DNA of 64,000 nt, from positions 1 through 64,000 of the forward strand of contig NZ_JACEMT010000040.1 of the NCBI RefSeq assembly GCF_013868415.1. Reading direction: 5' to 3'. The notes under the pieces were generated by a model, which saw only the letters and a list, made by a program, of their open reading frames with translations, searched no databases and had not been told where the DNA came from. Position 1 is the stretch's first letter; each line of letters starts with the position of its first letter. Below, piece by piece: positions 56,612 through 63,475 of the stretch. Both the position numbers and the translations under genes were made by a program. This stretch comes from Marinobacterium marinum (lineage in GTDB: Bacteria > Pseudomonadota > Gammaproteobacteria > Pseudomonadales > Balneatricaceae).

Positions 56612-56707
56612 TGGGCGCTGCTCGCATCCCGAAAGCTTGAGCCTTTGGTGGAGTGGACTTGTCGGCGGGCTTCTCTATGCTGAGAGGTGTACTCGACAGG
56701 GAGAGGG

Positions 56708-57808
56708 ATGATGCGAACGGTTTGGCGTGAACTTTTTGCAGCAGAGGGCGCCGATGTCGGCAGGGTATTACAGCCGCTGGAGCAGGCATTGGGGCCTGCC
56801 GATCAGCCGCTGCCAGCGTTGAGGGCCCGTCAGCCGGAGCTTGCACGGCAACTGTTGCAGTTGCAGTTGCCGGCCTGGCAGGTATGTGAACTGATCAGTG
56901 ATCACAACGATCAGATCTATCGCCGAGCTATTGATACGGCGCTGACCGGCATGCGCGAGCAGGGGTGGGGCGAGCCCCCGGTCGGGTTTTGTGTGCTGGT
57001 TATGGGGTCGGGGGGACGACATGAAAGTCTGCTGCATCCGGATCAGGACAACGCCCTGATTCTGGATGATTACCTGCCTGAGCGTCATACCGAGATTGAC
57101 AGCTGGTTTCTGACTCTGGCCGAGCGCTTTACGGCGCAGTTGGATGATGCCGGTATTCCGTTTTGTCGGGGGGACGTGATGGCCTCGCGACCGCTTTGGC
57201 GGAAACCGATCAGCGAATGGCGTGAGCAAATGCGGCTGTGGATGGGCAAGCGCCGAGTCAAATGGGTGCAGATCTGCAATATCCTGTTTGATTTTGCGCC
57301 TGTTTATGGTGATGTGCGGCTGGCCGAGCAATTGCGCGCCGCAATCGTGGCTCAACTCCCCGACGCAGGTCTTTTCCTGCATGAAATGGGCGAACTGTTC
57401 GATGAAGCGCCGGTCGCGCTGGATCGCTTTGATCGCCTGCAGGGCGATGGACGGGAGGCCCCTCACCCGGATGCCATCAATATCAAGCGTCAGGGGTTGC
57501 TGCCGCTGACGGCTGCGCTGCGTCTGCTGACGCTGAAAAAAAGCGGGGTCCAGGTGGCGTCGCGGGCGCGTCTTGACGAACTGCGGCAGCGGGGTGTGAT
57601 CAGCCATGATATGGCCTGGCGACTGACATGTGCCTTCGAGCACCTGATGGCACTCTTGCTGCAGGCTCAGTTGGTTGAACAGGGAGCCGGACGTGTGCCT
57701 GATAACTGGCTGGATTTGAGAACGCTATGTGATGCCGAATTGCGGTTGTTGCAATGGGACCTGCAGCAGGTACGCGCGTTTCAGCGTCATGTCAGGCACT
57801 TGAAATAG
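56708..57808 (+). CDS. DUF294 nucleotidyltransferase-like protein
   Basis: 366 residues (ATG 56708, GGGAGAGG ahead). The middle part carries the GlnD-type nucleotidyltransferase signature VLVMGSGGRHESLLHPDQDNALILDD: Gly-Ser near 100 and the metal residues Asp112 and Asp114. The C-terminal DUF294_C helical domain follows. Many relatives have an N-terminal cyclic-nucleotide and CBS pair; here only about 90 residues of a helical part stand before the transferase. The gene converges on a signalling operon with which DUF294 genes are often associated. Confidence 0.85.
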   Translation: MMRTVWRELFAAEGADVGRVLQPLEQALGPADQPLPALRARQPELARQLLQLQLPAWQVCELISDHNDQIYRRAIDTALTGMREQGWGEPPVGFCVLVMGSGGRHESLLHPDQDNALILDDYLPERHTEIDSWFLTLAERFTAQLDDAGIPFCRGDVMASRPLWRKPISEWREQMRLWMGKRRVKWVQICNILFDFAPVYGDVRLAEQLRAAIVAQLPDAGLFLHEMGELFDEAPVALDRFDRLQGDGREAPHPDAINIKRQGLLPLTAALRLLTLKKSGVQVASRARLDELRQRGVISHDMAWRLTCAFEHLMALLLQAQLVEQGAGRVPDNWLDLRTLCDAELRLLQWDLQQVRAFQRHVRHLK

Positions 57809-57907: not shown

Positions 57908-58120
57908 ATGATAGTCTGCATCTGCAAGCGTGTCAGTGATCGTGAAATCAGGCGTCTGGTTGATGAAGGTGCCACGTCGCTTGCGGATATTCGCAAGGAA
58001 ACGGAGTTGGGCACTCAGTGTGGCAAATGCGCCTGTGAAGCCCGCCGAATCGTGCGTGAGCTGAACGACCACCAGGGGCCGCTGGCCGGGCTGGTCAATC
58101 TGGCCTACGAACTGAGCTGA
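57908..58120 (+). CDS. bfd: Bacterioferritin-associated ferredoxin BFD
   Basis: A 70-residue [2Fe-2S] protein that reduces the iron in bacterioferritin so that it can be released. The four ligands are in CICKRV (Cys4, Cys6) and TQCGKCACE (Cys38, Cys41), the BFD pattern. A likely Fur box lies ahead. No bacterioferritin gene is nearby. The end overlaps the kinase gene on the other strand by 16 bp. Confidence 0.93.
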   Translation: MIVCICKRVSDREIRRLVDEGATSLADIRKETELGTQCGKCACEARRIVRELNDHQGPLAGLVNLAYELS

Positions 58121-60867
58121 TCAACCGCCTTGTCCTGCTGTTCGTCCCGTGCCACGGGTAACTCCAGCGCCAGGCAGGCCCCTGCCAAATGTTGTGGCTC
58201 ATCGACCCAGAGCCGTCCTCCCAAGTGATTGATAATTCCTCGGCTGATCGGTAATCCGAGGCCTGTGCCGCGTGGTCGGTTGTGACTGCCCGAGTCAGCC
58301 TGCTGTTCGGTTTGATGGAACTTCTCAAATACCTTTTCACGTTCCTGCGCCAGAATGCCGGGGCCGTTGTCCTCCACGTTGACGCGAAAACGCCGCTTGC
58401 CGGGCTGCAGTGACAGCAGTACTTCGGGCTGATCGGCATTGGCAAACTTGCTGGCATTATCGAGCAGATTAATCAGCACCTGAAGCAGCCGGTCCGGGTC
58501 GGCCATCAGGGGGCAAGGGGTATCGGGCAACTGCAGGGTGAAGGTGATGGCACGTTGCTGAAACAGTTGGGTGACGCCGTCGACGGCCTGTCGGCACAGC
58601 TCGGTCAGGTCACAGGGCTGCGGGTGCAGCGTCATGCGTCCGGACTCCAGCCGTGCCAGATCCAGGATTTCCTCGATCAAACGGGACAGGCGTTCGCTTT
58701 CGCGTACGATAATCTGGAGGAAATGCTGCTGTTGATCGGCGGGCATCTCATCGGCATCGCTCAGGATCTCGGCGAAGGCTCGAATGGAGGTTAAGGGGGT
58801 GCGCAACTCGTGACTGACCATGGCGACAAACTCGTCCTTCAAGCGGTCCAGCTCCAGCAGGCGCTCGTTGGCACTGCGTAATTCGTGCCCGATACGTTCC
58901 AGTTCGGCCGATTTTTGCTCCAGACGACGGTTGTATTCCAGTGTCTGTGAGGTGGTATCGAGAATGCTCAGGATGGATGCCAGATCCAGTGCCTCGCCAC
59001 GGACCACCGAGTTGATCAGGATGCGCGCCGTGGCACTGCCCAGCGCACCGGTCAATTCCTGTTGCGCCTTGGCGATCAATGCCGGAGGGGCCGGGCTGTC
59101 GTCATCGAGTGCCGGTGTTTGGCCGTCGAACAGGCGCAGGGTTGCACTGCGGCCCAGGTAACGACTCAACAGGCCGAAGAGCTCATAGCGGTTGGCCTGG
59201 CCCTGCCAGATGGCGGCCTGTTCGGCTTCCGGGCGCAGGGCATTAGTGAACAGGGCCGCCTGGGTCTGCTCCAAATGGCTCTGACGACTGAAAAGGGACA
59301 CGCCCACCAGCAGGCTGATGTTGGCCAGCATGCTCCAGAACAGCGAGTGGGTATAGATATCCCAGTTTTCCAGTCCAAAAAGAGCATAGGGGCGCAGCAG
59401 GGACCAGCCAAAGGGGCCATGCTCGATAAAGTCGGTACTCATCCAGCCGGATAGCGCAAACCCCGGAATCAGCAATGTCCAGGCCCAGACCAGGATGCCG
59501 GCCAATAAACCGGCTGCCGCGCCGTTGCGACTGGCGCCACGCCAGTAAAGCCCCAGCAGCAGTGAGGGTGCAAACTGTGCCGCCGCCGCAAAGGAGACCA
59601 GACCGATGGTGACCAGGCTGTAGGCCTCACCGATCAGAGCATGATAAAGATACCCCAAAATCAGAATCAGAATGATGGCAATGCGCCGAATGCCCAGCAG
59701 CCAGCCGGACAGGTCTCGGGAACGGTCCAGGTGTAATCGACGCCAGCGCAACAGCAAGGGCATGACCAACTGGTTGCTGACCATGGTGGAGAGGGCGATG
59801 GTTTCGACAATCATCATGCTGGTGGCCGCCGACAGGCCGCCAATGAAAACCAGCAGCGGCAGCCATTGCAGTCCGGCTGACAGCGGCAGGGTCAGCACGA
59901 AGTTATCGGGTTCGCCGGTTCCGCTGCCGGCCAGTCCGGCCAGCGCGATGGGAATCACGAACAGATTGATCAGCAGCAGGTAAAGCGGGAACAGCCAGCA
60001 GGCGCGGCGCAGGTGGTGTTCGTTAACATTTTCCACCACCAGTACCTGGAACTGTCGCGGCAGGGTGATAAATGCCAGTGTGGCCAGAATCAGCGTTCCA
60101 AACCAGCCCAGAGGGCCGCCGGGGATCTGGTCCAGGCCAAAGTGCAGGCCCGCGTCCGGCAGGATGCTGCCGGCTCGCTCCAGCAGCGCACCGGGACCGG
60201 GGTACAGGATAAAGCAGGCAAAAATGCCGACGGCAATAAACGCACACAGCTTTACCAGCGATTCGAACGCGATGGCCGTGACCATGCCTTCATGCCGCTC
60301 ACTGGCGTCCAGATGGCGGGTACCGAACAGAATGATGAATACCGCCAGTACCAGTGCCACCCAAAAGGCCTTGTCGTCCCAGAATGCACTTAATGAAAGC
60401 GCGGGAGGACGCTGGTTGGGGTATTCCGTCAGGATGCCGTAGCTGACGGTAATGGCTTTCAGCTGCAGGGCGATATAGGGCATGATCGCAACGACGGCGA
60501 TCAGCGCGACCAGCATGCCCAGACCGCCACTCTTGCCATAGCGGGCACTGATAAAGTCGGCAATGGATGTAATGCGCTGTGACTGGGCGATACGAATCAT
60601 TTTGCGCAGGACCAGCCAGCCGCACAGCATGGCCAGAGTGGGGCCCAAATAGATCAACAGAAAACTGAGGCCCGTGGTGGCCGCTCGGCCCACGCTGCCG
60701 TAAAAGGTCCAGGCCGTGCAATATACGGCGATTGACAGTGCGTAAATGGTAGGCGAGTTGACCACCGAACGCCCCTGTTCGGCACGGCGATCGCCCCAGG
60801 CAGCAATAATAAACAACAGGGCCAGATAGCTGAACGCGACGACCAGAACCACCAGGTTAGTCAGCAT
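58105..60867 (-). CDS. SLC5-type sensor histidine kinase (CbrA/CrbS/MxtR type)
   Basis: A 920-residue kinase whose sensor is a whole sodium:solute symporter domain (about 1-525, 13 helices). A STAC-like linker (about 557-620) and coiled coil (645-675) follow, then HisKA (FVAMVSHELRTPLTSI, His686) and a complete HATPase (N-box LINLLDNASKF, G1 DNGPG 833-837, G2 GTGLGL 867). There is no receiver at the C-terminus, unlike CrbS. Relatives sense carbon or acetate status. Last gene of a coupled four-gene operon; it overlaps the 65-residue gene by 11 bp. Confidence 0.92.
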   Translation of the reverse strand: MLTNLVVLVVAFSYLALLFIIAAWGDRRAEQGRSVVNSPTIYALSIAVYCTAWTFYGSVGRAATTGLSFLLIYLGPTLAMLCGWLVLRKMIRIAQSQRITSIADFISARYGKSGGLGMLVALIAVVAIMPYIALQLKAITVSYGILTEYPNQRPPALSLSAFWDDKAFWVALVLAVFIILFGTRHLDASERHEGMVTAIAFESLVKLCAFIAVGIFACFILYPGPGALLERAGSILPDAGLHFGLDQIPGGPLGWFGTLILATLAFITLPRQFQVLVVENVNEHHLRRACWLFPLYLLLINLFVIPIALAGLAGSGTGEPDNFVLTLPLSAGLQWLPLLVFIGGLSAATSMMIVETIALSTMVSNQLVMPLLLRWRRLHLDRSRDLSGWLLGIRRIAIILILILGYLYHALIGEAYSLVTIGLVSFAAAAQFAPSLLLGLYWRGASRNGAAAGLLAGILVWAWTLLIPGFALSGWMSTDFIEHGPFGWSLLRPYALFGLENWDIYTHSLFWSMLANISLLVGVSLFSRQSHLEQTQAALFTNALRPEAEQAAIWQGQANRYELFGLLSRYLGRSATLRLFDGQTPALDDDSPAPPALIAKAQQELTGALGSATARILINSVVRGEALDLASILSILDTTSQTLEYNRRLEQKSAELERIGHELRSANERLLELDRLKDEFVAMVSHELRTPLTSIRAFAEILSDADEMPADQQQHFLQIIVRESERLSRLIEEILDLARLESGRMTLHPQPCDLTELCRQAVDGVTQLFQQRAITFTLQLPDTPCPLMADPDRLLQVLINLLDNASKFANADQPEVLLSLQPGKRRFRVNVEDNGPGILAQEREKVFEKFHQTEQQADSGSHNRPRGTGLGLPISRGIINHLGGRLWVDEPQHLAGACLALELPVARDEQQDKAVDQLSS

Positions 60868-61054
60868 CGGAACGCTCCAGAATCAGAGCCGCCAGCATGA
60901 TCAGAGCGGCCCAGACAAGGTAGATGACGACCGGCAGGGTAGAAAAATTCCAGGCGGCAGGGCGGTCAAACAACAACAGCAAAGGGGGCGAAAACAGCAC
61001 CAGTGCCAGCACTGTCAGTGCGATCAGCCGTCCGCTCAGCGCCTGCTTCATCAT
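60857..61054 (-). CDS. Small membrane protein between exonuclease and kinase genes
   Basis: A 65-residue protein with two helices (about 9-29 and 40-60; LIALTVLALVLFSPPLLLLF and VVIYLVWAALIMLAALIL). It overlaps the exonuclease gene by 4 bp and the kinase gene by 11 bp. It may be the small partner of the symporter-like sensor, as the 44-residue protein at 48886 may be for its symporter. Its sequence matches no family I can name. Confidence 0.8.
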   Translation of the reverse strand: MMKQALSGRLIALTVLALVLFSPPLLLLFDRPAAWNFSTLPVVIYLVWAALIMLAALILERSDAD

Positions 61055-63090
61055 TGTGGCGTTCTCTTTTCAATCTGGGCTTGCAGCGCCAGAGCATCCT
61101 GCAGGGTGCGTACCCCTCGATTGGCCAGCCGGGGCAGCAGAACCAGCAGCAGTTCGGCGGTGACGCGGGCATCGCCCAGTGCCGTATGGCGCGTGCCGGG
61201 CGGGAACCTGAGTTCGAAGCGCTCGGCCAGCGCATCCAGTCCATGGCCTTCCAGCTCCGGGTCCAGAGCCCGTGACAGCAGCAGGGTGTCCAGTACGGGC
61301 ATGGTGAACTGGCTCTGCTCACCGGTTTCCGCAAGCTGCAGGGCCAAGCGGTCAAAGGCGGCATTGTGCGCGACCAAAATGCCATTGCCCACATACTGGC
61401 GGAAACGTGGCAAGACCACTTCAATGGGCGGAGACTGAGCCACGTCGGCATCGGTTAATCCGTGGATTGCCGTACTGTCGGACGGGATGGGACGCTGCGG
61501 ATTGACGCGTTGATCGAAGGTATCATCCGCCAGCAGGCGGTCATTCATGATGCGGCAGGCGGCGAGGCTGATAATGCGATCACCACGGCGCAGGTCAAGA
61601 CCGGTGGTTTCCGTGTCGAAAACCACCATTTCCAGCTGTTGCAGCGGCACATTGGCCAGATTGCGGCTGGGAGCCGGCAGATCGGCGATACTGAAATCAT
61701 GAAATTCGGGGCGCGGCTCAAGCCTTGGCAGCGGCTGAACTCCCCGCTGTGAAGCCGGCAGCGGCAGGCGCAGGCGAGCAGGCTGGCCAGACGCCGACGG
61801 CGGCAATGACCACAGGTCAGCGCCATGCTGCTCCAGCACATCCTCAATGCGGGGGGAGAGGGGTTCGTCAAACAGCGGCAAGGCACGCCACTGCTGCAGT
61901 TGCTGCTCGCTTACCGGATCTCCGCTCCAGCCGAGGTCGAGGTAAACACGGCGATTGCCCAACAGGACTTCCAGCTCGATTTCGGAGACCGGTTGCAACT
62001 CGTTCAGGCGCTGAATCAAGAGCTGCAGCAGAGCCAGCAAGGCCGGGCCGTCTACCCGCATCCATACGGGAATGCCGACCGGTGTCAGGCGAATATGTTG
62101 CAGGTTCAGCTGGGCCTTAAGTGCACTGCACAGGTCGTTGGACCAGGTTTCTTCCAGCAGGGACTGACTGAGCTGGTGCGCTTCGACCAACCGCGTCAGC
62201 TGCTCCACTTCTACAGCCAGTGCCTGGCTCTCCTGCTCGACAGCGTGTTCCAGCCGCTGCTTAAGGTCGGGGTTGTCGGTGACCTGAAGCAGTGCTTCGG
62301 TGGCACTGTTCAGGCTGCCGCAGTGCCCCCTCAGTCGAGGCAGCAGTTGTGCCAGGGTACGGCGCCAGCGCTGGTCGTGTTCAAGTGCGGCCGTCGTGTC
62401 TTGCAAGGTCACCAGCACCCCGCCATGCGCTGCGCCCAAGTGGCGCAGCTGGCACCTGAGCCAGTGTTGTTTGCCCGGCAGCAGCAGCTGCTGTGGCGCA
62501 CCGTTAGCGGACAGGTGCTGAAAAGCATCAAGCAAGCCGGGATGAGGCAGAAGTTGAGACAGCGGGCGGCCCAGTCCCAATGCCGGTTGTTCCCTGAACA
62601 TGTTAGCGGCTGCCGGATTAAACAGCAGAATGCGCTGGTGTCGGTCACAAATCAGCAGGGGGACATCCAAGACCTGCAGCAAGGCTTCCAGCTCTTGCCG
62701 GATGCGGTCAGCCTTGCGGGCACCTTGCGCCTGCGCGGCGGAAATCTGCATGCGGTCCTGGCGCCAGCCATCACGGATATGGTCGAGATCCGGCTGCAGG
62801 GCATGAAGCCAGCCATCAAGGGGGTAGTCACCCTGTGCATCTGGGCTGGCCACCAGGCGTGCCAGCAACACCTGAAATTGCCGAAGAGGCCGGAACAGGC
62901 GTCGTTCCAGCATCCAGCCGACGCTTGCACACAACAGCGCAGGAGCCAGACCCAGTACCCAGAGCAGAGGGCGGATATCAGCGCTTGGCTGCCACTGGCT
63001 TTCAAGCCAGAGCAGCATGACCAGACCGAACATCAGGCTGAGACCGGTCAAAAGCAGCCATAGCCCCAGCAGATTCTGACGAGAGGGCAT
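61051..63090 (-). CDS. Membrane PAS / degenerate kinase-like / DEDDh exonuclease fusion
   Basis: 679 residues from ATG 63090 (GGAGG ahead). Order: two membrane helices (8-29, 40-60); a linker; PAS-like domain (about 136-232, LLICDRHQRILLFNPAAANMF); a region laid out like a histidine kinase core (about 240-446) but lacking the phospho-His (LPRLRGHCGSL in place of SHELRTPL) and most ATP-binding residues; and a DnaQ-type exonuclease (about 485-655) with all DEDDh residues: Asp492/Glu494 (FDTETTGLD), Asp580 (HNAAFD), His635 and Asp640 (HTALGD). The fusion implies a nuclease whose activity or location is controlled by a sensor. Coupled to its neighbours. Confidence 0.9.
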   Translation of the reverse strand: MPSRQNLLGLWLLLTGLSLMFGLVMLLWLESQWQPSADIRPLLWVLGLAPALLCASVGWMLERRLFRPLRQFQVLLARLVASPDAQGDYPLDGWLHALQPDLDHIRDGWRQDRMQISAAQAQGARKADRIRQELEALLQVLDVPLLICDRHQRILLFNPAAANMFREQPALGLGRPLSQLLPHPGLLDAFQHLSANGAPQQLLLPGKQHWLRCQLRHLGAAHGGVLVTLQDTTAALEHDQRWRRTLAQLLPRLRGHCGSLNSATEALLQVTDNPDLKQRLEHAVEQESQALAVEVEQLTRLVEAHQLSQSLLEETWSNDLCSALKAQLNLQHIRLTPVGIPVWMRVDGPALLALLQLLIQRLNELQPVSEIELEVLLGNRRVYLDLGWSGDPVSEQQLQQWRALPLFDEPLSPRIEDVLEQHGADLWSLPPSASGQPARLRLPLPASQRGVQPLPRLEPRPEFHDFSIADLPAPSRNLANVPLQQLEMVVFDTETTGLDLRRGDRIISLAACRIMNDRLLADDTFDQRVNPQRPIPSDSTAIHGLTDADVAQSPPIEVVLPRFRQYVGNGILVAHNAAFDRLALQLAETGEQSQFTMPVLDTLLLSRALDPELEGHGLDALAERFELRFPPGTRHTALGDARVTAELLLVLLPRLANRGVRTLQDALALQAQIEKRTPQ

Positions 63091-63094
63091 GGCG

Positions 63095-63475
63095 TTAACC
63101 TCCCTGTTGCTGATTCGCCAGGAGCGCCTGCACGCGGGTGACCAGCTCACGGGTGGAAAAGGGCTTGGTGACATAGTCGTTGGCACCCAGTGCCAGTCCC
63201 TTTTCCTTCTCGACCTCGCGCCCGTGAGCGGTCAACATCATGACCGGCAGCTGACGTGTCGACTCGGTACTCCGCAGGCGTTCCAGCAGATCGAAGCCGC
63301 TCATGCCCGGCAGGCTGATATCCAGCAGCAACAGGTCGGGGCAGTGCTCATCTATCTGTACCAGCGCCTGTTCTGCATCCGCCGCCGTTGTCACGTTGAA
63401 CCCCGCCTGCTGCATCAGAAATTCCAGCGACAGCAGAATGTTGGGTTCGTCATCCACTACCAGTACGTGGGGCAT
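63095..63475 (-). CDS. Single-domain response regulator
   Basis: A 126-residue lone receiver with VDDEPN, the phospho-Asp in [13 protein letters not shown] (near 52), Thr in MMLTAHG and Lys in DYVTKPFS. There is no output domain, so it must act by protein contact. First gene of the operon with the PAS-exonuclease (4 bp ahead), the 65-residue protein and the kinase, which should phosphorylate it. Confidence 0.93.

Follow-up and report, generated by a model that had tools for sequence, protein, structure and literature searches.

Here, we describe a protein that joins a membrane hairpin, a PAS domain, and a pseudo-histidine-kinase core to a DEDDh exonuclease domain with intact catalytic residues, all in one chain of 679 amino acids (aa). 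It is encoded at positions 61051 to 63090 (minus strand) of a stretch of 64,000 nucleotides (nt) from Marinobacterium marinum (assembly GCF_013868415.1, contig NZ_JACEMT010000040.1, positions 1 to 64,000), which was analyzed at its full length and is referred to as "the window." The pseudokinase, the DEDDh nuclease, and the SSF-type two-component system encoded beside them are of known kinds, but we did not find their combination described: among the matches listed, the open-access literature yielded neither a description of a pseudokinase-exonuclease fusion nor a named system that pairs DUF294 with an exonuclease.

One reading frame for sensor and nuclease

The minus strand of this interval holds 679 open codons and a stop, and stops interrupt the plus strand across it. 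The start codon (ATG at 63090) lies 4 nt past the stop of a gene for a single-domain receiver, and a GGAGG stretch, seen by eye, precedes it inside the last codons of that gene; a scan for promoters and terminators gave no signal above shuffled sequences. An initial annotation of this DNA, made from its letters alone, had proposed two membrane helices that tether the protein, followed by a PAS-like domain. Both proposals held up. Two hydropathy peaks occur near the N terminus (19-residue windows starting at residues 6 to 13 and 39 to 43), and Pfam matches PAS_4 at residues 140 to 234 (E value of 5.8e-10; minus strand 62389 to 62673, computed from the residue numbers). The hairpin spans about residues 6 to 61; a short loop joins its helices, which suggests an anchoring role rather than sensing in the periplasm. 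The pseudokinase core, a DHp-like hairpin plus a CA-like fold, occupies about residues 236 to 446 (modeled as residues 232 to 452; minus strand 61735 to 62397) and is connected by a linker to the exonuclease domain at about residues 484 to 668, as aligned (minus strand 61087 to 61641). The best 25 of 31 matching NCBIfam models touch the exonuclease part only, and all of these score below their own cutoffs except the broad model TIGR00573.

The fusion is near full length in all eight searched genomes of the same genus and in 13 of 38 relatives, those eight included. Named genera that carry it include Marinobacterium, Nitrincola, and Marinospirillum, and further families and classes of Pseudomonadota have it as well. 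A profile of the sensor part gave strong matches in at least 14 of 293 genomes of the order (E value of ≤2e-163), at least 17 of 369 of the class (≤1e-30), and at least 39 of 398 of the phylum (≥196 bits), counts that come from overlapping samples and are lower bounds, as scoring was limited to the few best candidates of each genome. Some sensor-part match at an E value of 1e-10 occurred in 134 of the 398 phylum genomes; those below 196 bits were taken as ordinary PAS kinases or split matches, and the ones read were four fused loci (L159 to L162) and one kinase (L165). Sequence comparisons used an alignment of 23 rows (A1), from which L005, L006, L007, and L013 were omitted as copies of L034, L035, L036, and L047, and one of 60 rows, across which the sensor part is retained over large sequence divergence.

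A frameshift or chance fusion is ruled out, as sensor and exonuclease share one frame at 29 of 29 loci of a first set (the window's own locus included, with several genomes repeated from the 38 relatives) and at 19 of 19 loci of a second. The initial annotation had allowed that the two parts might mostly be separate genes, joined here by a frameshift; instead, a search across genomes finds the single chain beyond the genus, the exceptions being an unfused exonuclease (L189) and a broken copy (L048). The latter, from a Nitrincola metagenome-assembled genome, has its fusion frame in three pieces, possibly through an assembly fault, and was omitted from the alignments for that reason.

A histidine kinase fold that should not phosphorylate

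An AlphaFold model of residues 232 to 452, built from a 38-row alignment, had a mean predicted local distance difference test score (pLDDT) of 91.7. In a structure search against the PDB (best E value of 6.7e-12), the best 50 of 324 chains at an E value of ≤0.001 were, by title, histidine kinases, complexes with one, or the hybrid regulator LvrB, and chains of the Caulobacter pseudokinase DivL stood at ranks 2 and 4. TM-scores were about 0.36 to 0.52, low values that probably reflect a different hinge between the two subdomains. Compared with PDB sequences, a profile of the PAS domain plus the core matched a VicK-like kinase over both parts (E value of 1.1e-13) and also NifL (9qq6 chain A; 4.3e-9). 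Structure prediction, named in the initial annotation as the check on its kinase-like region, therefore agrees with a histidine kinase fold, with both the DHp hairpin and the CA alpha/beta fold present. At the level of sequence families the likeness is faint: neither HisKA nor HATPase_c matched the fusion protein in Pfam at an E value of 1, and HisKA was matched by 4 of 34 members of the family alignment (best E value of 1.6e-5).

The residues of a functional histidine kinase are another matter. At position 251, the place of the phospho-His, none of the 60 aligned rows has His; the residues there are P (24 rows), E (22), D (4), R (2), T (2), and V, L, M, Q, and G (1 each), with 1 gap. The Leu and Arg of the H box are mostly retained, and the acid beside the His position is not kept. 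No conserved Asn was found in the N-box stretch (residues 354 to 367), where no position has Asn in more than 3 of 60 rows, and in an alignment with VicK, judged by eye, the G2 glycines are gone and one G1 glycine is retained. The dead kinase core of the initial annotation is thus confirmed in its residues, and the core should not phosphorylate. In combining such a core with a PAS input it resembles DivL, inactivity being predicted from these losses. Downstream, the linker carries an RPEFxDF stretch (residues 460 to 466; minus strand 61693 to 61713) in which all 60 rows have D465 and F466 and 59 have R460; this stretch is a candidate for the switch.

An exonuclease related to proofreading domains

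The exonuclease that the initial annotation had judged intact proved so in every row: Pfam matches RNase_T at residues 489 to 648 (E value of 1.6e-30), and D492, E494, D580, H635, and D640 are retained in 60 of 60. The catalytic D, E, D, H, and D in an RNase_T fold make the domain, by residues and fold, an intact DEDDh 3'-5' exonuclease, with activity predicted. In a structure search it folds like the epsilon and PolC exonucleases, and its profile matches the PDB sequences of the PolC exonuclease and epsilon at E values of 3.3e-40 and 2.9e-28. No chain named as an oligoribonuclease occurs among the 20 PDB sequences found at an E value of 0.001.

These relatives weaken the suggestion in the initial annotation that pGpG or another oligonucleotide is the substrate. 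They also tell against a small-nucleotide system in which the DUF294 protein discussed below would synthesize a messenger, either an oligonucleotide or a modified nucleotide, for the DEDDh domain to destroy. The membrane tether and the writer/eraser pairing of DUF294 and DEDDh genes would suit such a system, but DUF294_C is placed with GlnD/GlnE, and not with a known messenger synthase, in the portion of the source available to us (PMC3710099), and we find it very doubtful.

The nearest solved relatives, the PolC and epsilon proofreading domains, instead raise the question of a plain DNA exonuclease of the repair or editing type, with the kinase-like part a mere dimer and membrane scaffold that takes no part in signaling. 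SbcC in the neighborhood at 3 of 25 loci (L034, L037, and L115) points in the same direction. We nevertheless judge this explanation improbable: SbcC was not found at the other 22 loci, receiver and SSF kinase partners recur, and the sensor part has been kept over large divergence. PolC and DnaQ epsilon exonucleases serve replication; the fusion shares their catalytic residues and fold, yet its exonuclease is borne by a membrane pseudokinase and clusters apart. In an exonuclease tree, 45 fused domains form one cluster (support of 82) separate from four epsilon subunits; the tree comes from a short search with long branches flagged. Its group labels were assigned by our own placing; a later check upheld the four dnaQ rows as epsilon subunits, and L176, labeled PRK09145-like, proved nearer PRK09146. 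Nested within the fused clade is the one unfused member found (L189, 8948 to 9559, plus strand), an exonuclease that stands beside DUF294.

A conserved cassette with a receiver and an SSF-type kinase

On the minus strand of the window, the order is receiver, fusion, small open reading frame (ORF), and SSF-type histidine kinase. The receiver (63095 to 63475; 126 aa) has D9, D52, T82, and K104. It carries no DNA-binding domain, in which it differs from the LuxR-type regulators that the accessible part of one report describes for S. fredii (PMC9100948). The small two-helix ORF (60857 to 61054, minus strand; 65 aa) has no Pfam match; its ATG overlaps the fusion stop and its end overlaps the kinase start. 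It resembles CbrX by place only: cbrX overlaps the start of cbrA, to which it is translationally coupled in Pseudomonas putida, according to the available text (PMC6591292). A similar ORF was seen by eye at 16 of 18 loci scanned with a hydrophobic-frame filter (exceptions, L117 and L164).

The SSF (SLC5)-type histidine kinase (58105 to 60867, minus strand; 920 aa) has Pfam matches to SSF, HisKA, and HATPase_c and looks active and intact. As in CrbS/CrbR, CbrA/CbrB, and RpuS/RpuR, a symporter domain is joined to a histidine kinase; unlike CrbS-type kinases, which combine SLC5, STAC, PAS, kinase, and receiver parts, this protein shows no Pfam match to PAS or receiver domains. STAC gave no Pfam match either, with no check made that Pfam includes a model for it.

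To gauge how regular the cassette is, we compared 42 fused loci, a nonrandom set picked from the matches that includes the window's own locus and loci at contig edges; three further fused loci (L034, L037, and L119) lie outside it, as does L165, an ordinary kinase with a weaker match. The receiver is directly upstream of the fusion on the same strand at 31 loci, 26 of them with a gap of ≤10 nt (overlaps counted). At L123 and L163, which are not among the 31, a receiver frame overlaps a probably mis-called fusion start. An SSF kinase occurs in the neighborhood at 26 of the 42 loci, and at several, such as L125, L128, and L152, it stands ahead of the receiver instead. Every one of 35 receiver rows (34 distinct) has D9, D52, and K104. 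These rows comprise frames of <200 aa scoring >85 and include the window's receiver twice, as well as one receiver with no fusion next to it (L187); longer receiver-matching frames at L121 (272 aa) and L153 (266 aa) lie outside them. The initial annotation had named the receiver as the likely partner, and its adjacency at most loci upholds that choice; the SSF histidine kinase, the DUF294 nucleotidyltransferase, and the pairing of DEDDh and DUF294 genes had escaped it.

Kinase fold and adjacency together could also mean that the main role of the fusion is to tune the SSF kinase or the receiver, as a phosphatase or sink, and that the nuclease is incidental. HisKA-type phosphatase chemistry needs the H-box His and the adjacent acid, neither of which is kept, and is therefore unlikely in the fusion. 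With the DEDDh residues also kept in all 60 rows, we hold this explanation to be highly improbable.

DUF294 genes usually adjoin a DEDDh exonuclease gene

The window also encodes a DUF294 nucleotidyltransferase with DUF294_C (56687 to 57808, plus strand; 373 aa), in which a GSGGR...DQD motif was found by eye and in which Pfam gave no match to a CBS domain. A DUF294 gene lies near the fusion at 33 of the 42 loci. The association extends beyond the fusion. In the 38 relatives there are 58 DUF294 matches, of which 51 lie ≤6.5 kb from an exonuclease match; on reading, 6 of the remaining 7 have an adjacent exonuclease (L184 does not), so that 57 of 58 are paired. Across the class, 43 genomes gave a strong DUF294 match; of the 54 DUF294 genes in them, 41 lie ≤8 kb from an exonuclease, 34 of these ≤1.5 kb away, where chance would give about 1 of 54 by an arithmetic estimate from roughly 3 exonuclease matches per genome of roughly 3 Mb. 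Weak DUF294 matches (E value of 2.4e-11 or worse, GlnD-like by length) and the three of the window genome were omitted from the 54.

DUF294 genes thus usually adjoin a DEDDh exonuclease gene, and in two genomes exonuclease, CBS, and DUF294 share a single chain: L188 (7825 to 9924, minus strand; domains by Pfam) and L187 (8177 to 10270, plus strand). By eye, the nuclease residues are kept in the former and lost in the latter. Across Pseudomonadota, the pair takes three forms: separate genes, an exonuclease fused to a pseudokinase, and a single chain. The window genome has three DUF294/exonuclease pairs, the fusion locus included, and one of them (L172) stands beside VC_2705-type symporters and an SSF-type kinase. 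The DUF294 frames beside the fusion are short (374 to 411 residues) in 11 of 12 relatives, and the other 46 DUF294 frames have ≥589 residues. Given also that no CBS match was found in the window protein, the sensing parts in close relatives seem to be carried by the nuclease and not by the transferase. Short DUF294 frames are not general, as more distant fused loci also have long ones.

Two further observations concern these neighborhoods. A PRK09146-type exonuclease and DUF294 pair of the window genome (L171, 8658 to 12992) has a gene for a BCCT transporter as its neighbor. Three loci (L158, 7593 to 8120; L159, 8042 to 8575; L172, 13688 to 14194) encode a probable membrane protein of about 170 residues, placed between DUF294 and the receiver/fusion or beside symporters; neither Pfam nor NCBIfam matched the copies at L159 and L172.

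The pairing favors a nuclease target that DUF294 also touches. It bears on another explanation, namely that a tethered RNA nuclease trims selected carbon-metabolism mRNAs, independent of DUF294 chemistry, while the pseudokinase sets its location and activity. A PRK09145-type paralogue in the window genome does match an exoribonuclease model, below cutoff (E value of 8.7e-5), but trimming of this kind leaves both the regular DUF294 neighborhood and the one-chain fusions unexplained, and we think it unlikely.

A proposed receiver-gated nuclease

The reading that we tentatively favor, as a real possibility that falls short of being probable, is that a DivL-like, membrane-anchored pseudokinase reads receiver phosphorylation and gates a nuclease that works with DUF294 in carbon-source control. 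The SSF-type kinase would sense a solute, likely a small organic acid, and phosphorylate the single-domain receiver; the phosphorylated receiver would dock on the kinase-like core, an input module as in Caulobacter DivL; core, PAS domain, and membrane helices would then alter access to the tethered exonuclease or its dimer arrangement; and the nuclease would strip nucleotides from the same target as the neighboring DUF294 protein, either an RNA 3' end or a nucleotidylated protein. The outcome would be adjusted carbon-source uptake or use. We infer docking and gating from an intact receiver without an output domain, an intact-looking SSF kinase, a kinase-like docking surface, and the precedent of DivL; the initial annotation, too, had put forward a gate, worked by a ligand or by the neighboring receiver. 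A more specific version, which we consider rather unlikely, is a reversible nucleotidylation switch under two-component control: DUF294 would add a nucleotide or short tail to a target linked to carbon transport, the DEDDh domain would remove it, and the phosphorylated receiver, acting through the eraser's pseudokinase, would decide between them.

Known systems resemble parts of this arrangement. DivL shares with the fusion a kinase fold from which activity is expected to be absent, a PAS input, and a single-domain receiver as the likely ligand; it has a Tyr at the phospho-His place and no nuclease. NifL, matched by the profile through an entry titled as a NifL-NifA complex, likewise combines PAS with a kinase-like core; it lacks a nuclease, and its output is protein binding to NifA. 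The core of DivL, a pseudo-histidine kinase, reads a receiver (DivK~P), as described in the available part of the source (PMC4211667). For the CBS/nucleotidyltransferase protein Pflu5625 of P. fluorescens, the accessible text predicts nucleotidylation of proteins (PMC5715377). In P. aeruginosa, the cluster PA3232-PA3235 is reported, in the portion available, to be raised on propionate (PMC9765439).

A further parallel is PP_0353/PP_0354 of P. putida, where an RNase_T-family exonuclease shares an operon with a CBS protein, is under the control of an SSS-type sensor kinase system, and is tied to carboxylate use. PP_0353 is presumably a free-standing exonuclease, and we take PP_0354 to carry DUF294. 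PP_0353 is a transcription target of MxtR/ErdR, whereas the fusion gene neighbors a single-domain receiver. Unlike the fusion, PP_0353 is described without a sensor part in the accessible text, which presents PP_0354 as a CBS-domain protein, reports a pp_0353 mutant impaired on pyruvate and not on acetate, and raises mRNA decay as speculation (PMC9927547).

Several results weigh against the proposed receiver-gated nuclease. The same available text records no pyruvate defect upon deletion of pp_0354 (PMC9927547), which speaks against a strict dependence between DUF294 and nuclease in P. putida. The model of the fusion protein gives no support for a rigid gate, because linker residues 450 to 473 have a pLDDT of <50 and the full-length model has a predicted template modeling score of 0.50. 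Loci L159 to L162 have neither a receiver nor an SSF kinase, and 9 of the 42 fusion loci have no DUF294, two of them close to a contig end. Across the class, 13 of 54 DUF294 genes have no exonuclease within 8 kb, some of them in genomes with a fusion elsewhere (G374, G380, G399, and G412). Of these 13, inspection covered 10 (L191 to L199), where no close exonuclease was found, with G354:C52, G410:C265, and G412:C1:1024695 outside it.

Implications

The nearest published clue to the role of the fusion is the PP_0353 phenotype of P. putida, and the cassette looks like an as yet unstudied control system that may connect carbon uptake with a nucleotide-based reaction. If the proposed gating is true, the pseudo-histidine kinase would have a nuclease for its output, which would be unusual among two-component systems. 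The widespread pairing of DUF294 with DEDDh exonucleases offers a practical way into two families whose functions are unassigned. It also makes testable the idea that nucleotide-based writer/eraser control of carbon use lies behind the pyruvate phenotype of PP_0353, which is so far unexplained.
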